Source: Lachnospiraceae bacterium (lineage in GTDB: Bacteria; Bacillota; Clostridia; Lachnospirales; Lachnospiraceae). Taken from it: a DNA stretch of 38,961 bases. Shown here in pieces: positions 26,438 through 38,961 of this stretch. The notes under the pieces are model-generated. The model made no database searches and had not been told where the DNA came from. It saw only the letters and a list, made by a program, of their open reading frames with translations. Position 1 is the stretch's first letter, and every line of letters starts with the position of its first letter. A program made the translations under genes and the position numbers. The stretch spans positions 1 to 38,961 of the forward strand of contig JAFTFE010000059.1 in the NCBI GenBank assembly GCA_017449765.1, in the 5' to 3' direction.

Positions 26438-27718
26438 ATGAATATAGTCGTAGAATATTTAAGTAATTGTTATCCGACTGTTATGGCTCTTTTGACCATA
26501 ATAGTTATGGTGGAATTAACTAAACGTAGTGGGATATTTGAGAAGACAGGGCGTATATACATCATGGTGTTGCTTACATTTGCTCTGTCTTTGCTTGAAT
26601 TTGCGGAGATATGGATAGATGAACATAATTTAAATTATAGGCTTTTATTTTATAAGGCCATGCTTATTTACAGTCTCTATCCTATGGTAGCTCTGCTTTT
26701 TTATTATTTTACATCTGATGTAAAGCATAAGTTCCTTATATTTATCCCGCAGCTTATTAATATAATTATTAATGTTCTTGATTTATTTGGCACAAGGCTT
26801 ATTTATTATTACTATGAGGATCATGGATACAAGGGTGGACCACTTAATTTTCTGCCTTTTGCTGTGGAAATATTCTATGTTGTTTTAATATGTGTCTATT
26901 CTGTAAGAATATTAAATGGAAAAAATAAATCCAAGGGTATTATAATGGCATTTTGTATGGCGACAATTATATTTGCACAGTTCCTTACTAATTTTGATAT
27001 GCCGTCCATATATCTTCCTACGATAATTGCTATCGAGATTTTAGTATATTATTTTTATATTGCGGCTATCCAGTATAATGAAAATAAGGATGCGCTTGTA
27101 GAGAGCGAACTTGCACTTGAAAGAAACAGAAATAATCTTTTGCTTGCGCAGATAAAGCCGCATTTTATAAACAGCAATCTTGCGGTTATAAGAAGTCTTT
27201 GCTATGAGGAGCCTGAAAAGGCGGTCGAGATGTTGGATCATTTTTCGGGATATCTGCGGGAAAATATACAACAGATAGATGATATGCAGCTGGTATCCTT
27301 TGAAAGAGAGATGGAATCGGTAGATAACTTTATCTATCTTGAAATGCAAAGATTCCCTGATAAAATAGAGGTTATTAAGGACATAAAGGTTAATGATTTT
27401 TTTGTTCCGCCTCTTTCGGTTCAGACAATCGTGGAAAATGCTATAAGACACGGTATAAGCATGACCGGCAAAAAAGGAACTGTCCGTATATCGACACTTG
27501 CAAAGGATGATAATTTCATTGTAAAAATCGAGGATAACGGCAAGGGCTTTGACGTAGACAACATAGAATTTGACGGGATAAATCATGTCGGAATTAAAAA
27601 TGTAGCCAATAGATTAAAAAGGATACTTAACGGAAAAATCAAGGTTGAAAGCGAAGTCGGATACGGAACCATCGTTACATTTTACATACCGAGAGAAAAT
27701 GTAAGGAAAGAAATATAG
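26438..27718 (+). CDS. LytS/YehU-type sensor histidine kinase
   Basis: A 426-residue membrane kinase with about six hydrophobic segments in the first 210 residues and no large extracellular domain. A coiled coil at about 215-235 follows, then the His_kinase domain of the LytS group: phosphoacceptor His242 in QIKPHFINS (family consensus QINPHFLxN), PPLSVQTIVENAIRHGI, and GKGFD and GIKNVANRL. It pairs with the response regulator 47 bases downstream. Tight spacing after ohrR suggests that peroxide derepression also raises this system. The signal is unknown. Confidence 0.92.
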   Translation: MNIVVEYLSNCYPTVMALLTIIVMVELTKRSGIFEKTGRIYIMVLLTFALSLLEFAEIWIDEHNLNYRLLFYKAMLIYSLYPMVALLFYYFTSDVKHKFLIFIPQLINIIINVLDLFGTRLIYYYYEDHGYKGGPLNFLPFAVEIFYVVLICVYSVRILNGKNKSKGIIMAFCMATIIFAQFLTNFDMPSIYLPTIIAIEILVYYFYIAAIQYNENKDALVESELALERNRNNLLLAQIKPHFINSNLAVIRSLCYEEPEKAVEMLDHFSGYLRENIQQIDDMQLVSFEREMESVDNFIYLEMQRFPDKIEVIKDIKVNDFFVPPLSVQTIVENAIRHGISMTGKKGTVRISTLAKDDNFIVKIEDNGKGFDVDNIEFDGINHVGIKNVANRLKRILNGKIKVESEVGYGTIVTFYIPRENVRKEI

Positions 27719-27765
27719 CAGATAAAAGGTATTAATTAAGATATCAGGATTGGAGGCAGACATAT

Positions 27766-28536
27766 ATGAAATGTTTGATAGCAGATGATGAACCGCTTAT
27801 ATTGAAGGATATCCATAGAACAGCAAAGAAGGTTCTTGGAGAAGATACGGATTTTTTTCTGGCGGAAAATTCTGATGAAGCGCTCGGGATAATAAAGAAA
27901 GAAAATGAATCCGGAACCGGAATACAGATAGCATTTCTTGATATAGAGATGCCGTTTATATCCGGACTGGAGGTTGCAAAAAAGATTCAGGAGATAAGTC
28001 CAAAAACCAATATAATATTTGTTACGGGACACGGCAAATATGCACTTGATGTGCTGGAAATGTATGTGAGCGGTTTTATCATGAAGCCGGTTAATGAAAA
28101 GAGCATGAAAAAGGCAATCGAAAACCTCAGATATCCGATACCGAGTCTTTCGATAAAATGCTTCGGACACTTTGAAATCTTCTTTGGAGATAAACCTGTT
28201 AATTTTAAACGTACACAGTGTAAGGAGATAGTTGCATATCTGGTGGATAAAAAAGGTGCACTTGTATCCGAGGATGAGCTCAGATATCTGCTATGGTCCG
28301 AGAATGAAGATACAGAAAAGAAAAAACGCTATATACGAAATATCATAAGTGATATAAGAGTAGCATTTAAAAACTGCGGAGTGGATGATGTAATTATAAA
28401 TAACAATAAATCCTTTTATTGTATAAACAAGGATAAGATAAGCTGTGATTACTTTGATTATCTGGATGGGAATAAAGATATAACCGATGACAAGAATGCT
28501 TCATATATGGAGCAGTATCCTTGGGCGGAACTTTAA
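27766..28536 (+). CDS. Response regulator with SARP-like winged-helix output
   Basis: A 256-residue regulator. The receiver domain (1-122) has D7-D8, phosphoacceptor Asp59 in FLDIEMP, and Lys112 in MKPV. The C-terminal half starts IKCFGHFEIFFGDKPVNFKRTQ and continues KEIVAYLVDKKGALVSEDELRYLLW, the pattern of OmpR-like DNA-binding domains of the SARP/BTAD type, rather than the LytTR domain usually paired with LytS-type kinases. This receiver plus SARP-type combination is common in Lachnospiraceae. GGAGG precedes the ATG. The surface-protein genes downstream are possible targets, but the sequence does not prove it. Confidence 0.88.
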   Translation: MKCLIADDEPLILKDIHRTAKKVLGEDTDFFLAENSDEALGIIKKENESGTGIQIAFLDIEMPFISGLEVAKKIQEISPKTNIIFVTGHGKYALDVLEMYVSGFIMKPVNEKSMKKAIENLRYPIPSLSIKCFGHFEIFFGDKPVNFKRTQCKEIVAYLVDKKGALVSEDELRYLLWSENEDTEKKKRYIRNIISDIRVAFKNCGVDDVIINNNKSFYCINKDKISCDYFDYLDGNKDITDDKNASYMEQYPWAEL

Positions 28537-28989: not shown

Positions 28990-31900
28990 ATGAAAACAAA
29001 AATAAGATTAAGAAAGAGATTATTTAGCTTTGCGATTGCACTTGTGATAGTGATTGGTACTTTTTCAGGTGTTGTGCCGGGTACAAGTATGACATCGTAT
29101 GCAGCAGAAATAGCAATAATAAAACCATATGAAATTCCTGCTTCTTGGGAAAAAGATGATAGTGCACATACATTAAATGATTTTGAGGGCTTTCAATCAA
29201 CATCGTTTGAGGCTGTAACTGCATTGGCGGGTACAGATTATATTCCAAATATAGGCAGTTGTGTAGTTGTATACGATTATGTTGAAGACCACTATGTGGG
29301 TGTTTGCTTTAATAATGGAAGTTATGCAGGTATCGTTAATCTTTATTTTCATTATATAACATATAATGCTTGTGCCTTAAATTCTTCGTTTTATTATACC
29401 ACTGGTGTAATCAGTGATTCTTTTACTGTAAAACTTAATACTAATGGTGGAACAATCAATAATGGGAATATTACTGAATATACAGAAGGAACAGGAGCAA
29501 CATTACCGACTGAGACTGATATTATAAGAGATGGTTATACCTTTGGTGGATGGTATGCAAATTCAGATTTCAGTGGTGATCCAGTAACTTCTATTTCCGA
29601 AACAGAAACAGGAAATAAAGAATACTGGGCTAATTGGACAATGGCAGGAGATATGCAAATATTTATTAAAGGAATTAGTGGTGGGTCTAAATCTATTACT
29701 GTATATAATAGTGATACTATCGCTATAACCAAAAATAAGATTGTTGATGTATTTAATACTTCACAAGGAGTTAAAAGATTAATATTTGCAGGTAAGGTGT
29801 TAGAAGGCGATAAAACATTGGCTGATTATAATATTCAAAAAGAATCTACACTTCATGTAATATTTGATAATGAATATACGGTATCATTTAATACTAATGG
29901 AGGAAGTGCTGTTTCTTCTCAAACTTTAGTCAGTGGAAGTAAGGTAACGGTACCTGAAGATCCGGAAAAGGATAGCTATACATTTGCCGGTTGGTATTCA
30001 GATGAGGGTTTAACATCACAGTATAATTTTGACGATGAAGTTACATCTGATTTTACGCTATATGCAAATTGGATACCGGTAACATATACAGTAACATTAC
30101 ATGCAAATGGTGGAACTATTGCTGATGGAAAAAATGTTACAGGATATACTTATGGAACAGGTGCGACATTGCCAACTGATTCCGATATGAGTAGAAACGG
30201 TTATATATTTGATGGCTGGTATGATAACGAAGAATTAACCGGAGAGGTTGTAACAAGTATATCAACAACTGATACAGGAAATAAAGGATACTGGGCTAAA
30301 TGGACATCAAATAAATACACTATTACATTTGTGAATGACGATAATACAAAAATATCAAGCGTTGAATATGACTATGGAACATCTGCAAATGATATAGTTA
30401 AACCAAGTAATCCGACAAAGAGTGCAACAGCGCAGTATACCTATACATTTGCAGGCTGGGATTCGGAAGTAACAGTTGTCACAGCAGATAAAACATATAA
30501 GGCGACTTATACAAGTTTAGTAAATAAGTATACAGTAACCTTTAAAGACTATGATGGAAGAACTGTATTAGATTCGCAACAAGTGAATTATGGTCAGGCT
30601 GCAACAGCACCTTCTAATCCAACAAGAACAGGATATACATTTATAGGTTGGAATAAGACATTTAATAATGTTACTGAGAATTTAGTAGTAACAGCACAAT
30701 ATAGAATAAATAAATATACAATTAAATTTGTTGATGACGATAATACAGAAATATCAAGTGCAAAATATAACTATGGAACATCTGCGAATAATATAGTAAA
30801 ACCGAGCAATCCAAAAAAGAGTGCAACAGCACAGTATACCTATAAATTTGCAGGATGGGATTCCGAAATATCTGATGTTACTGGAAATAAAACTTACAAG
30901 GCAACTTATACAAGTGCAGTAAATAAGTATACAGTTACTTTTGATTCAAATGGTGGAAATGATATTGATAGTCAATCCGTAGATTATGGTACCAAAGCAA
31001 CGGCGCCTAAAGATCCGACAAACGGTAATTTGCATTTTATAGGATGGTTTGTTGATCCTACGATAGACAATATATTTAATTATGAGACCTTTGAATATAA
31101 TACATTTGATTTTGATACTGAAATAACAAGTGACATTACTCTAAAAGCTTTATGGAGCACAAGATTAAATGTCAATACAAAAGGATGCGGCCAGATTGCT
31201 ACAGCAGAAAGTGGCGGAGAATTAGAATATGATGAAGAATATACGATAACATCGACATCAGAATTAGCAATAATTGGATTGTATGATTCATTTGATGTAG
31301 AAGCAAAACCTGATGAAGGATATCATTTTGTCAAATGGACAAAAGATGGTGATGATTATTCAACAGATTCTAAGATAACTATTACGTTAGAAAATGATAT
31401 GGTTGAATTAGTTGCAGTTTTTGAAATTGATACCTATGACGTTACATTTGATTCAAACGGACATGGAACAGCACCTGTTTCTCAAAGTGTAGTATATGGC
31501 AGCACAATAACAAAACCAAAAGATATATCAGCAGAAGGTTATACTTTTGCAGGATGGTTCAAAGAGAAAAAATGTAAAAATGAATGGGATTTTAATAAGG
31601 ATACTGTAAAAGAAGATACTGTAATCTATGCAAAATGGATTGAGTTAGGTGAAAAAGAAATAGCAACAGATGTTAAGAAAGATGAAAATTCTCCGGAGTT
31701 AAATACATCGGATTTAACTAAAGAATTAGCAGACTCCACTCTCTCAAATGAAGAAAAGGATAAAATTGATGAGGCGATAGAGCAGGGGCAAGATGTCGAT
31801 GTAGAAGTTTATCTTGAAATAAATGACATTAGTGAAAGTGTTAGCACTGATGACAAGGAGAAGATTACGGCACTTGTTTCTGATGCTGACGATATAAAGT

Positions 31901-32655
31901 ATTTTGATATTTCATTATTTAAAGAAATATCAATAAGTGGACAGTCGCAGGGAGCAACATCACTTCATGAACTTACATCACCGATAAAACTTACTATCGC
32001 AGTGCCGGAAAGCTTCCCGGCAGTTGCAGCAGGTTATACAAGAATTTATACAGTTATAAGAATTCATGAAGGTATTGCAGAGAAACTTCCGACAACCTTA
32101 AATGCGGATGGAACATTAACATTTGAGACCGATAAGTTTTCAACCTATGCACTTTCATATACGGATTCGGCAGTAGATGCAGGCAAGGATGAAGATGAGG
32201 ATAAAGATAAGGATAGAGATAAGGATAAAGACGCAGAAGAGATAAGGACTGTAGATATGTACCGTCTCTATAATCCAAACAGCGGAGAACATTTCTATAC
32301 AGCAAATGTATCTGAAAAGGATAATCTTTTAAGTTTAGGCTGGAGAAATGAGGGTATCGGTTGGAAGGCACCGGTTAGCTCTAATACGCCTGTATACAGA
32401 TTATATAATCCTAATGCCGGTGACCATCATTTTACAATGAATATTGATGAGAGAGATTTCCTAATAAGTGTAGGTTGGAAGTATGAAGGTATAGGATGGT
32501 ATTCAGATGATGCAAAGACAGTTCCTTTGTACAGACAGTATAATCCGAATGCTAAATCAGGAACTCATAACTATACCGCTAATAAGAGCGAGAATGATTG
32601 GCTTGTAAGTCTTGGTTGGAGATACGAAGGCATAGGCTGGTATGGAGTGAAATAA
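28990..32655 (+). CDS. Secreted multidomain surface protein: InlB repeats, ubiquitin-like domain, DUF5648 repeats
   Basis: A 1221-residue exported protein. The signal peptide is 1-39 (RKR, hydrophobic core, SYAAE). Residues about 40-145 are an unrecognised N-terminal domain. InlB/Listeria-Bacteroides repeat 1 (about 146-221, GYTFGGWY) comes next, then a ubiquitin-like domain (222-293). Repeats 2-7 follow from about 295 to 730 (FAGWYSDE, FDGWYDNE, FAGWDSE, FIGWNK, FAGWDSE, FIGWF), then a divergent repeat, repeat 8 (about 820-890), and a charged domain (about 890-1060). A Lys/Asp-rich linker leads to three DUF5648 repeats (1088-1221: YRLYNPNSGEHFYTAN, YRLYNPNAGDHHFTMN, YRQYNPNAKSGTHNYTAN). There is no LPXTG or membrane anchor; DUF5648 repeats may hold it to the wall. 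GAGG precedes the ATG. A role in adhesion or host interaction is inferred. Confidence 0.92.
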   Translation: MKTKIRLRKRLFSFAIALVIVIGTFSGVVPGTSMTSYAAEIAIIKPYEIPASWEKDDSAHTLNDFEGFQSTSFEAVTALAGTDYIPNIGSCVVVYDYVEDHYVGVCFNNGSYAGIVNLYFHYITYNACALNSSFYYTTGVISDSFTVKLNTNGGTINNGNITEYTEGTGATLPTETDIIRDGYTFGGWYANSDFSGDPVTSISETETGNKEYWANWTMAGDMQIFIKGISGGSKSITVYNSDTIAITKNKIVDVFNTSQGVKRLIFAGKVLEGDKTLADYNIQKESTLHVIFDNEYTVSFNTNGGSAVSSQTLVSGSKVTVPEDPEKDSYTFAGWYSDEGLTSQYNFDDEVTSDFTLYANWIPVTYTVTLHANGGTIADGKNVTGYTYGTGATLPTDSDMSRNGYIFDGWYDNEELTGEVVTSISTTDTGNKGYWAKWTSNKYTITFVNDDNTKISSVEYDYGTSANDIVKPSNPTKSATAQYTYTFAGWDSEVTVVTADKTYKATYTSLVNKYTVTFKDYDGRTVLDSQQVNYGQAATAPSNPTRTGYTFIGWNKTFNNVTENLVVTAQYRINKYTIKFVDDDNTEISSAKYNYGTSANNIVKPSNPKKSATAQYTYKFAGWDSEISDVTGNKTYKATYTSAVNKYTVTFDSNGGNDIDSQSVDYGTKATAPKDPTNGNLHFIGWFVDPTIDNIFNYETFEYNTFDFDTEITSDITLKALWSTRLNVNTKGCGQIATAESGGELEYDEEYTITSTSELAIIGLYDSFDVEAKPDEGYHFVKWTKDGDDYSTDSKITITLENDMVELVAVFEIDTYDVTFDSNGHGTAPVSQSVVYGSTITKPKDISAEGYTFAGWFKEKKCKNEWDFNKDTVKEDTVIYAKWIELGEKEIATDVKKDENSPELNTSDLTKELADSTLSNEEKDKIDEAIEQGQDVDVEVYLEINDISESVSTDDKEKITALVSDADDIKYFDISLFKEISISGQSQGATSLHELTSPIKLTIAVPESFPAVAAGYTRIYTVIRIHEGIAEKLPTTLNADGTLTFETDKFSTYALSYTDSAVDAGKDEDEDKDKDRDKDKDAEEIRTVDMYRLYNPNSGEHFYTANVSEKDNLLSLGWRNEGIGWKAPVSSNTPVYRLYNPNAGDHHFTMNIDERDFLISVGWKYEGIGWYSDDAKTVPLYRQYNPNAKSGTHNYTANKSENDWLVSLGWRYEGIGWYGVK
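29653..29868 (+). other. Segment coding a ubiquitin-like domain
   Basis: Residues 222-293 of the secreted protein. Against human ubiquitin (from memory) it aligns with no gap from Met1 to position 72, with 37 identities by hand count. Identical stretches are MQIF, SDTI, RLIFAGK (42-48) and DYNIQKESTLH (58-68). Lys6, 27, 29, 48 and 63 are kept; Lys11 and Lys33 are not. Of the Ile44 patch, Ile44 and His68 are kept and Leu8 and Val70 are Ile. The C-terminal LRLRGG is replaced by Asp-Asn-Glu-Tyr-Thr, which runs into the next InlB repeat, so it cannot be conjugated as it stands. Codons are AT-rich like the rest of the gene. Confidence 0.93.
30310..30921 (+). repeat. Tandem InlB-type repeats with a near-duplicate pair
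   Basis: Three units each begin with Asn-Lys-Tyr-Thr: 30310-30522, 30523-30708 and 30709-30921. The first and third are both 71 residues long and nearly the same (YGTSAN, IVKPSNP, KSATAQYTY, KTYKATYTS), separated by a different unit. This points to a duplication within the gene. Confidence 0.85.
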
Positions 32656-32802: not shown

Positions 32803-33780
32803 TTATACCATAACAGATTCGTTTAATATGATGTCTTTGTATTTTTCTCTTTTATCATTGGATATTTTCAAAATGTCCATACATTTATCAATATCCCAAT
32901 CTGTGTTTTCTATTAGGTTTTTGATACTGTTTATGGTTGATTCTTCAATGCCGGAATCATAACCATCATTAAATCCATCATCATATACACCCTGGCTTAA
33001 ATTACACATACTTCTTACACCACCTTCCAGTTCTTTGGTCATAGGAATATTAAATTCTTCGCTTAATCTTTTCTTTTTATCTTCCGTATTTATTGTCTTT
33101 GACAGCAGGGTAGAGAGCATCTGTATGAGCTTGTCGCTACTGTCATTTTTATTATCGTTCAGGCATATGATGGAAACGGAGATTAAATCATAATCGTCCA
33201 TGTTTTCTTCAAAATGTCCGAATACTTCTTCTTTCGTAAGGTTATACCGGGATATGGTGTTTTGCCTTTTCTTCGGCGGTCTGGTACATATCCATATGGA
33301 ACGAACTTTCTTAAGCTTCTCATAGTGAGAGTTGGTAAATATCGTTTCATACTGCGAGGATATCATGCGGCTTGCATAATATATGCCTCTTTTTATGATA
33401 GGATATCCCGGATAAAAATCATTTTGTGCTTCGACATTTATAATCATGTCAGCACGATTATCCGTTTCAGGTATGATTGCCTTGAATTTAATGTCAAATC
33501 TGACAACACCTTCTTTTATAGAGCTGTCTTCATTATTGGCGCCTTCGATAGATTCCGGCACTTCATCTCTGTGAACCGTTTCTTTGGAAATCTGTGGTTC
33601 ACCGTCTATAAAATTTTCGGCTATTTCAAAAACACTGTAATCGGAATACTCTTTTGTAGAATATTTGATAATCCAGGCAAGGATTATCTTGTTTGCAAGC
33701 ACCTGTTTACAGGCTTTGTCATAGGAAGCCATGATACCTGCAGTATCAATGTGTTTTGCTAATCTGTTTTGTACCTTCAA
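32803..33780 (-). CDS. Rpn-family / PD-(D/E)XK nuclease (transposase-like)
   Basis: A 325-residue protein of the recombination-promoting nuclease/PD-(D/E)XK transposase-like group common in Lachnospiraceae. Visible features are DKACKQVLANKIILAWIIKY at the start, RFDIKFKA and IINVEAQND (the Asp and Glu-x-Gln of a PD-(D/E)XK site), YPIIKRGIYYASRMIS, and an acidic C-terminal tail with DDGFNDGYDSGIEE. I accept the TTG start at 33780 because AAGGAGG lies 8 bases upstream of it; the first ATG (residue 17) has no such site. Family members are DNA endonucleases linked to RecA-independent recombination. No terminal repeats of a mobile element are visible. It sits alone between two surface protein genes. 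Confidence 0.85.
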   Translation of the reverse strand: MKVQNRLAKHIDTAGIMASYDKACKQVLANKIILAWIIKYSTKEYSDYSVFEIAENFIDGEPQISKETVHRDEVPESIEGANNEDSSIKEGVVRFDIKFKAIIPETDNRADMIINVEAQNDFYPGYPIIKRGIYYASRMISSQYETIFTNSHYEKLKKVRSIWICTRPPKKRQNTISRYNLTKEEVFGHFEENMDDYDLISVSIICLNDNKNDSSDKLIQMLSTLLSKTINTEDKKKRLSEEFNIPMTKELEGGVRSMCNLSQGVYDDGFNDGYDSGIEESTINSIKNLIENTDWDIDKCMDILKISNDKREKYKDIILNESVMV

Positions 33781-34227: not shown

Positions 34228-37200
34228 ATGAAAAGGAGATTGTCGCGAATAATAGCTATATTGCTTGTGTTGATTATAGCAGTTTGCAATCAGAGTTATT
34301 CATCTTGGGCATCTGATGAAGATATTAATATATCAGAAGAAATAGAAGTGGTATCAGGAGAGAATGAAATTGAACAATCAGAGATTGCAACGGATTCGGA
34401 TATCGAGCCTGAAACGAGCTACCCTGCGTTCATAAGATCAGAGTCTGTTGATGACGTAAGAGTTACCGTAACTGCTTCAGAAGGTGTATTTCCTGAGGAA
34501 GCAACCCTTAATGTAAATAAAGTTACAGATGTTGAGGAGGAGAATATAAATCAGGCGGTAGATGCTGTACGTGACGATAATGTTATGGTGGCTCATACCT
34601 ACACATTTGATATAAAGGTACTTGATGAAAACGGTATAGAAATCCAGCCGGCAGACGGACAGACTGTAAATGTAAGTTTTGCTATGGATGAGGTATCAAA
34701 TCAGAATCTTACAGCGGATGTCTATCATGTACCGGATGAAGACGGAAGCCTTGTAGCAGAAGAGCTAAACACAACAGAAAGCGGAGACATCGTTACAGCT
34801 GTATCGGATGGATTTTCGTATTATACTGTTGAATTTACATATGATGAAAAGCAGTATGTGATGAATGGTGATACAACGGTAGCACTTTCGGACATACTTG
34901 ATTATGTAGGTCTTACAGGTGAGGTAAGCGCTGTAAGCGTAAGTGATGAGAGCCTTTTCTCGGCTTCAAATGAAAGCGGAGAGTGGATGGTAACTGCACA
35001 TCAGGCATTTTCTACAAATGAGTGGATGAAGGTTACTATTGATGGGGTTGAATATGAGATTGTTGTGACGGATGCGACGAATATCTCTTCTGGAGCAACT
35101 TACAAAGTAGATGGTTCAACGACATATTCTATTACAATTCCTAAAACATCCTCGCCAAATGGTAATTGTGTGTATAATCAGGTTTATAATGGCGTAACAT
35201 CCTTGTCTTCTTATACAGCAACTAGCAACTTTACTGCGAATATAAGCGCTGATGGAAAGCTTACTCTTTCTAAGAACGATCCTAGTTGGAGTTATGATTA
35301 TACTTTGGGAAGCGGTTATAATGCATGGAAAGTTGGATACAATGACGGAACATATTATTTTTATAGAGCATATGTTAAATCTGACCAGACATGGACAATA
35401 AGTGCTTCAAATTCTGCTTATACCGGAAGCAGTGTGACAGGATATACATTAAGTGGAACAGGCTATGGCACGCTGACAAAAACATATTCAGGTAGAAATA
35501 GCACAACCTATAGCGGTACCACAGCGCCTACTAGTGCTGGAGATTATCATGTTGTAGTTACATATGCGGGAAATGATTCCTATAACCAACGTTCCCAAGA
35601 GGTTGATTTTTCAATATCGCCAAAATCAATCACAATCACAGCCAAATCCCAGACTGTAACCTATGGCACTTCTATAACTAACGGAACAGGACAGGTAACG
35701 GCTTCACTTGCTTCCGGTGATTCACTTACTGCAATTACATTAACGCCAAGTACAAGCAATGTTACCACAAGTGGAACGATTACACCTAGCTCGGCAACAA
35801 TAAAGAATGGAAGTACAGATGTAACTGCGAATTATACCATTGCATATAATAAAGGAACGTTGACTATAAATAAAGCATCCCTTACCGTTACGGCTAAACC
35901 TAAAACTATTACCTATGGTTCTGCTCCTGCAAATGATGGCGTAACTTATAGTGGATTTAAAGGCAGCGATTCAGCATCTTCATTGAATGGTACATTGGCT
36001 TATTCATACAACTATTCACAGTATGGAAATGTAGGTTCATATACTATTACACCGAGTGGACTTACAAGCAGCAATTATAATATAACATTTGCAACAGGAA
36101 CACTTACGGTAAATCAAAAGGTAGTTGGATTAACATGGACAAACACATCATTAACATACAATGGTTCTGCACAGAAGCCGACTGCTACAGCTACAGGTAC
36201 AGTTAATAGTGATGAAATAGGTGTTACCGTGACAGGTGAGAAGACGAATGTAGGAACTTATACAGCTACAGCATCTGCTCTCACGGGTACAAAGGCAGGT
36301 AATTATAAGCTTCCTTCAGAAAATACATATAGCTTTTCAATAGTAAATGCATCAATGAACAGTGAAGTTTCTGCAACCGACTATACAGGAACCTATGATG
36401 CAGCTGCACATGGTATTACAGTAACAGCACCAAGCGGTGCAACCGTGAAATATCGCACTGCAAGCAGCGGAGATTATACCCTGACAACTAACCCGACATA
36501 TACAGATGCTGGAACCTATACAGTATATTATCAGGTGGAAAAACCAAACTATGAAACAGTTACAGGTTCAGCAATAGTTAAGATTAATCCGAAAGAGCTT
36601 ACTCTTAACTGGAGTACTAACAATACATTTACATACAATGGTTCATCTCAGGCACCTACGGCAACTATCAGTGGTGTAATTAATAATGATGTTTGTACAG
36701 TGAGTGTAAATGGTGCCCAGACAAATTACAGTGCGACAGCGTATACGGCAACGGCTGAACTTATTGGTGCAAAAGCAGGAAATTATGTCCTTCCGGCTAA
36801 TCATATAACGACATTTACTATAGGTAAAAAAGCAACCACAATTACAGCAAATAACCGGACGGTGACTTATGGCACTTTAATTGCATCAGATGTTGCAAAT
36901 GTTACAGCAACGGGTCTTGTTGACGGAGATATAGTAACAGCGATAACCCTGACACCAAGCACAAGTGATGTTACTACAAACGGAACAATCACACCAAGTG
37001 CAGCAACGATTAAGAAAGGCGATACGGATGTAACGAATAACTACAACATTACATACAACACCGGAAACCTTACGATAAACAAAAAGCCTATTACTATTAG
37101 CGGTATAACTGCTTCGAATAAAACTTATGACGGTGCGACAGTAGCAACATTAAATTATAACGGAATTAACTGGATTGCATGTGGTATGGTTGCCGGTGAT

Positions 37201-38961
37201 GACCTTTCTGTTACGGCAGCCGGAACATTTTCAGATGCTGATGTCGGTACCGGAAAGACAGTTACAATAACAGGTTTAACCTTGGGTGGCACTAAAGTCG
37301 ATAATTATGAGCTTGCATCAAGCGGACAACAGACAAGTACAACTGCTGACATCAATACGAAGGCAATTACCATAACAGCGGACAGCGATTCAAAGGTATA
37401 TGACGGAACTGCACATACAAAGAATAGTTATAGTATTACAAGCGGCGGACTCGCAACAGGTGATAGTATAGAGAGTGTCACCGTAACAGGAAGTCAGACG
37501 TTTGTAGGAAGCAGCGATAATGAACCGAGTACGGCTGTGATTAAAAACAGTTCAGGTGTATACGTTACCGGAAATTATGATATTACATACACCAAAGGTA
37601 CACTTACAGTAACGAAGAAACCTCTTACCATAACGGCAGACAGCGATACAAAGGTATATGATGCTACACCGCTTACAAAAAACAGCTATACACATACAGA
37701 ATTAGCATCAGGAGACAATATCACAAGTGTAACGATAACCGGAAGTCAGACGAGTGTTGGCGAAAGCGCAAATGAACCGAGTGCAGCCGTAATTAAAAAA
37801 GGCGATGAAGATGTAACTGCAAATTATGATATAACCTATGCGAACGGAACACTTACGGTAACAAAGAAATTGGTTACGATTACTGCGAATAGCGATACTA
37901 AAATATATGACGGCACGGCTCTTACCAATGATGGTTACACAGTTAGCGGCCTTGAGACCGGAGACAGAGTTGATAGCGTAACTATAAACGGAAGTCAGAC
38001 ATCTGTAGGTACTAATGCAAATGAACCAAGTTATGCAGTTATTAAAAACAGTGCAGAAGAAGTTGTAAATGATAACTATACTATTTCATATGTCAACGGA
38101 ACACTTGAAGTAACAAAGAAAGCTATAACGATAACAGCTGATAGTGACACTAAGGTATATGACGGAACAGCACTTACAAAGGACAGTTATACAAATACCG
38201 CATTGGCAGACGGAGACAGAATAGATAGTGTAACCGTAACCGGAACTCAGACTATCGCGGGTGAAGGTGCAAATGTTCCAAGTGAAGCAGTGATAAAAAA
38301 TGCTGCAAATGAAGATGTAACCTTAAGCTATGATATAACTTATGAAAACGGAACACTTGAAGTAACCCAAAAGGCTGTAACGATAACGGCAGATGATGCT
38401 ACGAAGGTATATGACGGAACAGCGCTTACAATAGACAGCTATACCAACAGCGACCTTACAGCAGGGGATACTATTGAGAGTGTTACAGTAACAGGTAGTC
38501 AGACTAATGCAGGTCAAAGTGCAAATGTTCCAAGTGAAGCAGTTATAAAAAATGGTGCGGGTGAAGATGTAACCGCAAGCTATGACATAACCTATGTAAA
38601 CGGAACACTTGAAGTAACGAAGAAGCCTGTTACGATAGACAGTATCTCAGCTAAAGATAAAATCTATGACGGAACTACAGATGCAGAGCTTGATTATGCT
38701 AATATAGATTGGTCGGCATGCGGTATGGTAGATGGTGATGAGCTTAGTGTAACTGCAACAGGTACATTTGATAATTCAGATGTAGGCACAGGTAAGAATG
38801 TCACTATAACAGATATAACGCTTGGTGGAACAAGCATAGATAATTACATACTTTCAGAGGACGGTCAGCAGACTACAGCTGTCGCAACGATTAATAAGAA
38901 AGCAGTAACAGTTACTGCACTTAAACAGACCGTTGCTGTAAACGGAGAGATAGAAAACTCA
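34228..38961 (+). CDS. Very large secreted repeat protein with MBG and YDG domains (3' end outside window)
   Basis: The frame is open from ATG 34228 (AGGAGG upstream) to the window edge, 1578 codons so far. The signal peptide is about residues 1-28 (MKRRLSRIIA, hydrophobic core, SSWAS). An acidic stretch follows, then an unrecognised domain (about 65-280) and a Thr/Ser/Tyr-rich region. MBG-type repeats run from about residue 467 (TITAKSQTVTYGTS, TVTAKPKTITYGSA). Longer YDG units start about 952, and then a tight array of YDG repeats runs from 1047. The beta-sandwich repeats suggest a long stalk reaching out from the cell surface. Any anchor lies beyond the window. It shares its promoter block with the ubiquitin-containing gene, so the two are probably expressed together. 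Confidence 0.9.
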   Translation, partial: MKRRLSRIIAILLVLIIAVCNQSYSSWASDEDINISEEIEVVSGENEIEQSEIATDSDIEPETSYPAFIRSESVDDVRVTVTASEGVFPEEATLNVNKVTDVEEENINQAVDAVRDDNVMVAHTYTFDIKVLDENGIEIQPADGQTVNVSFAMDEVSNQNLTADVYHVPDEDGSLVAEELNTTESGDIVTAVSDGFSYYTVEFTYDEKQYVMNGDTTVALSDILDYVGLTGEVSAVSVSDESLFSASNESGEWMVTAHQAFSTNEWMKVTIDGVEYEIVVTDATNISSGATYKVDGSTTYSITIPKTSSPNGNCVYNQVYNGVTSLSSYTATSNFTANISADGKLTLSKNDPSWSYDYTLGSGYNAWKVGYNDGTYYFYRAYVKSDQTWTISASNSAYTGSSVTGYTLSGTGYGTLTKTYSGRNSTTYSGTTAPTSAGDYHVVVTYAGNDSYNQRSQEVDFSISPKSITITAKSQTVTYGTSITNGTGQVTASLASGDSLTAITLTPSTSNVTTSGTITPSSATIKNGSTDVTANYTIAYNKGTLTINKASLTVTAKPKTITYGSAPANDGVTYSGFKGSDSASSLNGTLAYSYNYSQYGNVGSYTITPSGLTSSNYNITFATGTLTVNQKVVGLTWTNTSLTYNGSAQKPTATATGTVNSDEIGVTVTGEKTNVGTYTATASALTGTKAGNYKLPSENTYSFSIVNASMNSEVSATDYTGTYDAAAHGITVTAPSGATVKYRTASSGDYTLTTNPTYTDAGTYTVYYQVEKPNYETVTGSAIVKINPKELTLNWSTNNTFTYNGSSQAPTATISGVINNDVCTVSVNGAQTNYSATAYTATAELIGAKAGNYVLPANHITTFTIGKKATTITANNRTVTYGTLIASDVANVTATGLVDGDIVTAITLTPSTSDVTTNGTITPSAATIKKGDTDVTNNYNITYNTGNLTINKKPITISGITASNKTYDGATVATLNYNGINWIACGMVAGDDLSVTAAGTFSDADVGTGKTVTITGLTLGGTKVDNYELASSGQQTSTTADINTKAITITADSDSKVYDGTAHTKNSYSITSGGLATGDSIESVTVTGSQTFVGSSDNEPSTAVIKNSSGVYVTGNYDITYTKGTLTVTKKPLTITADSDTKVYDATPLTKNSYTHTELASGDNITSVTITGSQTSVGESANEPSAAVIKKGDEDVTANYDITYANGTLTVTKKLVTITANSDTKIYDGTALTNDGYTVSGLETGDRVDSVTINGSQTSVGTNANEPSYAVIKNSAEEVVNDNYTISYVNGTLEVTKKAITITADSDTKVYDGTALTKDSYTNTALADGDRIDSVTVTGTQTIAGEGANVPSEAVIKNAANEDVTLSYDITYENGTLEVTQKAVTITADDATKVYDGTALTIDSYTNSDLTAGDTIESVTVTGSQTNAGQSANVPSEAVIKNGAGEDVTASYDITYVNGTLEVTKKPVTIDSISAKDKIYDGTTDAELDYANIDWSACGMVDGDELSVTATGTFDNSDVGTGKNVTITDITLGGTSIDNYILSEDGQQTTAVATINKKAVTVTALKQTVAVNGEIENS
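37366..38628 (+). repeat. Tandem array of YDG repeats, about 252 bases per unit
   Basis: Units start at 37366, 37624, 37873, 38125 and 38377, with periods of 258, 249, 252 and 252 bases. Each opens like VTITADSDTKVYDGTALT and closes like YDITYVNGTLEVTKK. A longer related unit (INWIACGM type) precedes the array at about 37087, and a matching one (IDWSACGM type) follows at 38629, so the five short units are bracketed by two copies of a longer one. Confidence 0.9.

Follow-up and report, generated by a model that had tools for sequence, protein, structure and literature searches.

Ubiquitin is taught as a hallmark of eukaryotes, with one well-known bacterial exception. The secreted ubiquitin of Bacteroides fragilis, BfUbb (encoded by ubb), is described in two reports as a free mature protein of 76 amino acids, which starts at Met1 and ends in Cys; it acts on bacteria and, in vitro, is an inhibitor of ubiquitination (PMC3352274, PMC5705921). 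Effects of extracellular ubiquitin on immune cells have been reported, with CXCR4 as a disputed receptor (PMC10892293). An earlier note on the DNA analyzed here, which comes from a Lachnospiraceae bacterium, had described a ubiquitin domain within a secreted repeat protein and had named the B. fragilis protein as precedent, and BfUbb does place secreted bacterial ubiquitin among known kinds. Among the titles listed in our literature search, none dealt with such proteins in Clostridia, Firmicutes, Lachnospiraceae, Ruminococcus or R. albus. What appears to be new is a ubiquitin that forms one bead inside an InlB array and belongs to a broader, scattered group.

The window (the whole stretch of DNA analyzed, 38,961 nucleotides) carries on its forward strand an ORF of 1,221 amino acids (28990..32655) that includes the ubiquitin domain. 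Residues 1-39 (28990..29106; MKTKIRLRKRLFSFAIALVIVIGTFSGVVPGTSMTSYAA) form a Sec signal peptide, predicted by eye, with likely cleavage after SYAA, in keeping with the earlier note, which had placed a signal peptide ahead of the domain. They are followed by an N-terminal region (residues 40-144; 29107..29421) with no Pfam family at E 0.1. An InlB B-repeat (PF09479; 29422..29622) stands directly before the ubiquitin domain (residues 222-293; 29653..29868), which lacks the C-terminal Gly-Gly, and another stands directly after it (residues 296-359; 29875..30066). The two neighbors scored 46.8 and 80 bits against the Flg_new cut-off of 27, and the second matches Internalin B repeat 2y5p in sequence; the proposed placement between two InlB repeats thus stands. 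Additional InlB-type repeats occupy 30067 to approximately 31700, and a DUF5648 domain (PF18885; residues 1090-1219; 32257..32646) lies at the C-terminus. In total the Pfam scan found seven Flg_new and three Flg_new_2 stretches, PF09479 reaching 293.5 bits, so that with repeats above the cut-off the protein passes as an InlB B-repeat protein. We infer, rather than observe, its retention at the surface, because the signal peptide was called by eye and the Pfam scan found neither a sortase nor an S-layer anchor in the protein.

Residues 1-218 had no full-length match in the 36 other genomes of the genus, where partial matches were to InlB repeats or to sections of the initial ~107 residues. These genomes yielded no orthologue of the gene, hence no domain-free site could be shown. 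Among the best 120 of 6,593 matches of a whole-protein search, none had PF00240 in the precomputed Pfam column, and no domain-bearing orthologue appeared.

The earlier note had read residues 222-293 as a eukaryotic-type ubiquitin, and profile, ungapped identity and predicted fold all support this reading. The ungapped match over 72 positions has 37/72 residues identical to human ubiquitin, and on recounting 22/27 are identical at ubiquitin positions 42-68; conservation is uneven, with 15/41 kept over positions 1-41. The six reading frames contain 77,492 stretches of 72 codons; the runner-up among them reached 14 identities to ubiquitin, and the maximum in 20,000 shuffles of the domain was 15. 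PF00240 scored 52.0 bits (cut-off 25.4, E 6e-14), and 57.5 bits in a genome-wide profile search in which this domain was the only match in the window's genome. Structure prediction returned the beta-grasp ubiquitin fold, with block pLDDT of 82-94 across almost the whole domain. The domain continues the reading frame of a single uninterrupted ORF, and its GC content is 26.9% against 34.3% for the gene, a value as low being found in 0.9% of gene segments of the same length. The exposed C-terminal LRLRGG of a conjugatable ubiquitin is absent; FDNEYT follows, and then the next repeat. All of positions 42-48 and 6/9 residues of the Ile44 patch are retained.

With eukaryotic ubiquitin and polyubiquitin (PF00240) the domain shares sequence, ungapped register and predicted fold; unlike them it has no Gly76, stands in a predicted extracellular repeat protein and is much changed over positions 1-41. 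BfUbb also lacks Gly-Gly, but it ends in Cys, which the window domain does not, and the BfUbb-type signal peptide directly before Met1 has no counterpart here, the domain starting at residue 222, internally, between InlB repeats. ThiS, MoaD and SAMPs belong to the beta-grasp fold class, as does ubiquitin. No such family was found in the window protein by Pfam at E 0.1, and unlike them the window domain has no terminal Gly-Gly and is predicted to be extracellular. The flanking repeats match those of InlB B-repeat proteins (PF09479; Internalin B, 2y5p) above the cut-off. No leucine-rich repeat family was found in the window protein at E 0.1 by Pfam scan, and the NCBIfam internalin models scored far under their cut-offs; unlike InlB B-repeat proteins, it has a ubiquitin domain among its repeats.

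The profile was then applied to other bacteria. PF00240 matches above the cut-off were present in 7/397 genomes of the window's family, 4/37 of its genus, 6/295 of its order, 5/391 of its class and 4/199 of its phylum (two of them weak), counts that include the window's own genome and in which some other genomes recur, as well as in 1/6 and 4/70 genomes of two other families; the 14 control genomes had no match. A search of genome contigs added four loci, one from Bizionia argentinensis and three from MAGs, of which one has goat jejunum in its title, and a plasmid search one, on pRUMAL01 of Ruminococcus albus 7 (WP_013483628, annotated 'ubiquitin family protein'). Phage records gave no match. 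Viral contigs gave none with the window domain as query and nine loci with the G440 domain, which is closer to ubiquitin. Four of the viral-contig loci (L083, L085, L086 and L090) were judged eukaryotic-virus-like and excluded, L087 alone was kept of the three near-identical loci L087-L089, and three bacterial-looking ubiquitin loci were obtained from these contigs. A search with residues 215-300 served as comparison set only, its best 120 of 1,328 matches all being PF00240 and, as far as named, mostly eukaryotic polyubiquitins.

The final set comprised 29 bacterial ubiquitin domains, the window's included. Left out were G147, G146, G628 and G668 (under the cut-off) and G854 (28.0 bits), G892 (25.8 bits, internal stop), G1117 (33.0 bits) and G1256 (57.7 bits), which pass it but were not seen to fit a secreted layout. 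No signal peptide was seen in G1117 or G1256. The former, a small genome of the window's order, has weak ubiquitin-like domains at L081 5893-6978 and L082 4021-4647 (33.0, 23.6 and 23.2 bits); one protein holds two of these domains, and the proteins have hydrophobic stretches. The latter has its ubiquitin-like domain at the start of a protein (L079 3-905) whose later part resembles peptidoglycan-binding repeats by eye.

Identity to ubiquitin over positions 1-72 ranges from 46% to 94% across the 29 domains, few of which are as diverged as the window copy. The R. albus 7 plasmid copy is 90% identical and a copy on a bacterial-looking viral contig 94%; relatives this close make descent from a eukaryotic gene, as the earlier note had proposed, the best explanation. 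A rule requiring [AVSLTIG]-x-Ala ahead of Met1 picked out 24/29 domains, and reading the sequences removed G289, which lies ~100 residues past its signal peptide, and restored G017, whose VNA|Met1 had been missed by an offset. A predicted signal-peptide junction with the mature protein starting at Met1 is therefore found in 24/29 domains (24/33 with the four left-out matches). The others are the window domain, L011 and L012, which stand among repeats, L027, which starts ~100 residues after its signal peptide, and L080, where the gap is a few residues; L080 is a small predicted secreted member of 108 amino acids on a 5.6-Mb contig. The window domain belongs to a scattered set of predicted secreted bacterial ubiquitins, mostly at the predicted mature N-terminus.

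RLRGG is kept in 3/29 domains. In G589 and G1043 the chain continues beyond it, and in L084 it forms the end of the protein. At L037 6496-6723 and L075 6093-6320, ubiquitin comes after a predicted signal peptide and the protein runs on past an intact RLRGG; eukaryotic deubiquitinases would be expected to cut such a layout. L084 2902-3228 (viral contig IMGVR_UViG_3300021559_000195) encodes a predicted signal peptide and a complete ubiquitin, RLRGG and then stop, potentially a secreted, conjugatable ubiquitin. At L036 6758-7896 (G440), two adjoining genes encode predicted secreted ubiquitins that are 83% identical in the domain and have similar-looking tails.

The relatives are fused to various modules: S-layer (SLH) domains in L037, L040 and L077, a type IX secretion tail (Por_Secre_tail) in L010, an IPTL-CTERM motif in L087, BspA-type leucine-rich repeats in L034, fn3 in L028 and L037, and an autotransporter match under its cut-off in L091. 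Several, e.g. L036, L038, L029, L075 and L076, had no other Pfam family at E 0.001. These attachments to surface and secretion modules lead us to read display outside the cell as a common theme. Like the window protein, R. albus 7 WP_013483628, L037 with SLH and L010 with the type IX tail join ubiquitin to surface or secretion modules; unlike it, they have the domain directly after a predicted signal peptide. PF00240 together with PF09479 (Flg_new), a combination that the earlier note had proposed to look for, occurred, besides the window protein, in L037, L035, L032 and L013, the Flg_new score of L037 being 27.0 bits, just at the cut-off, and 33.2 bits for the piece alone; L077 has ubiquitin with Flg_new_2.

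The earlier note knew of no ubiquitin embedded in an InlB-repeat protein. On sequence comparison, embedding of ubiquitin in InlB-like repeats appears to be rare, not unique. In the MAG locus L011 the domain stands between repeats like those of the window protein by BLASTP. In L012, from a related MAG, it appears to stand behind one such repeat, and the sequence after it does not look repeat-like; the BLASTP comparison with the window repeats covered L011. Pfam gave 12.1 bits for one L011 flank and nothing for the other two stretches flanking the domains of L011 and L012.

InlB repeats are beta-grasp domains, and structural alignments support this indirectly. Linear di-ubiquitin structures aligned to the window model span the ubiquitin domain and the InlB repeat before or after it (6njd on model 1-153 and 3b08 on model 82-223, at 6-8 A rmsd), suggesting that the repeats may be arranged as ubiquitins are in a chain. 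The literature search found no paper on the InlB repeat fold.

To learn which surface is kept, we compared eight diverged bacterial lineages with 85 diverged units taken from 22 polyubiquitin-type proteins, those with a name being eukaryotic. Positions 54-66 were kept at 0.81 (95% 0.73-0.88) in bacteria and 0.65 (0.59-0.71) in the polyubiquitin units, and the Asp58 patch at 0.83 and 0.62; the Ile44 patch was kept at 0.37 (0.19-0.55) and 0.54 (0.43-0.66), with overlapping intervals. The direction was the same with 12 bacterial sequences against 82 units. The patch definitions, and the counting of Ala57 as retained, are our own working assumptions. The contrast is only suggestive, because the one control set is small and was picked by words shared with the window. 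It suggests that the group as a whole may not be selected for the standard ubiquitin-receptor surface, most of which the window copy retains; the poor retention of the Ile44 patch in diverged copies argues against ordinary ubiquitin-receptor mimicry for the group.

The phylogeny proposed in the earlier note was built from 59 rows and 72 columns. It gave supported bacterial groups, {G289, G977, G1012, G487} (98/99), {G017, G414, G426, G094} (100/99), {SIG556, RGIG2515} (100/100) and {G533, G440, G1043, G1019} (94/86), but was mostly unresolved and settled neither the backbone, the donor nor the number of transfers; a single bacterial clade was neither rejected (AU p 0.121) nor shown. The row nearest to the window's is G425, which belongs to the same genus and is 56% identical. 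G977 and G1012, from different classes, are alike along the protein (66% over 497 amino acids plus a second stretch, together covering 98% of G977), which makes transfer between bacteria likely. One member, moreover, is on the mobilizable R. albus plasmid.

Of 21 chosen pairs, 14 had saturated synonymous sites and seven a finite dN/dS (0.017, 0.017, 0.042, 0.10, 0.13, 0.15 and 0.28), of which several, with dS above 2, are rough. G440a and G1043 share 71/72 residues at a DNA identity of 76.9%, their synonymous sites being saturated. In several pairs residues were thus kept while synonymous sites became saturated, indicating strong selection; if two members had been captured separately, part of their history would be eukaryotic. 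The highest value, 0.28, is that of the window against G425, indicating that the window copy changes faster, as would a domain losing constraint.

Together, these data lead us to a reading to which we give about an even chance: the window domain is a ubiquitin captured from a eukaryote and displayed outside the cell as a putative non-covalent ligand. A eukaryotic ubiquitin gene would have entered bacteria once or more and been placed behind a signal peptide, which would make Met1 the first residue of the mature proteins, and the secreted ubiquitin genes would have moved among distant bacteria. In the window lineage the domain may have been shuffled into an InlB array, whose beta-grasp repeats would accept another bead. 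The array would hold the domain off the cell, and its retained face (42-48, 54-68) would bind a putative partner. Without Gly-Gly, the domain would be neither conjugated nor cleaved off as ubiquitin fusions are; a secreted ubiquitin of this kind, held out by an array, would act by binding. The earlier note had named as possible roles mimicry of host ubiquitin, an interaction with ubiquitin-handling enzymes, and service as a building block. The presence of PF00240 in only 4/37 genomes of the genus counts against the ligand, as do the faster evolution of the window copy and the poorly kept Ile44 patch in the group. A wider proposal, which we hold tentatively and think somewhat more likely to be wrong than right, makes the window copy a branch of a wide class of surface-displayed ubiquitins in Bacillota, Bacteroidota and probably Pseudomonadota, arising by eukaryotic capture, fused to a variety of systems for secretion and anchoring, constrained by strong purifying selection, and acting as a putative extracellular ligand whose selected face lies around Asp58 and Lys63 and not at the Ile44 patch.

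As the main alternative, the domain might be a passive spacer, a very stable, protease-resistant beta-grasp bead slipped by recombination into the InlB array and having no binding role. We consider this rather unlikely, although the exact placement between repeats, the di-ubiquitin alignments running into the neighboring repeats, the faster divergence of the window copy and the decay of the Ile44 patch in diverged relatives all agree with it. Bacteria own many beta-grasp spacers, so a spacer role leaves the capture of a eukaryotic ubiquitin, and its strong conservation, unexplained; nor does it fit positions 54-66 being kept beyond the control or the uneven conservation of the window copy before and after position 42. 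An antibacterial domain that harms competitors by contact or after release is improbable. Its model, BfUbb, is secreted without Gly-Gly and inhibits other B. fragilis strains (PMC5705921), and small predicted secreted members such as L080 are similar to it in layout; but bovine ubiquitin was inactive against those strains, and the window domain is locked in a 1,221-residue array, with no free mature N-terminus. Equally little probability attaches to a passive capture now decaying or to an assembly chimera. The genome is a draft of 191 contigs with 5.29% contamination, the segment is low in GC and the distribution patchy; against this stand the unbroken, in-frame ORF with clean domain borders, the confidently predicted fold, relatives in independent genomes, on a complete plasmid record and on the 5.6-Mb contig of L080, and the same kind of embedding in L011.

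Scattered bacteria thus encode ubiquitin within proteins predicted to be secreted; several lineages have kept it almost without change, and in the window one ubiquitin is threaded into an adhesin-like array. If displayed, such proteins would present hosts or protists with a molecule like the host's own, a matter of interest for immune tolerance, antibodies against ubiquitin and signaling by extracellular ubiquitin. They also offer a natural experiment on which ubiquitin surface stays once conjugation is lost.

We also noticed the genes around two of these loci. Just upstream of the ubiquitin gene in the window are a histidine kinase and a response regulator (26438-28536, forward strand). Directly downstream, on the other strand, is a match to a PD-(D/E)XK nuclease family transposase (32803-33780; 30.3 bits, cut-off 27.4), followed on the forward strand by a second very long ORF with YDG and MBG_2 repeats, likely a surface protein, which runs off the window (34228-38961). 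On R. albus 7 pRUMAL01 (L074 3392-10282), the ubiquitin gene lies within a run of predicted secreted proteins, several of which have a tail resembling that of the ubiquitin protein by eye (the one such paralogue examined had no Pfam family), and a PI-PLC-X protein and a dockerin protein adjoin.
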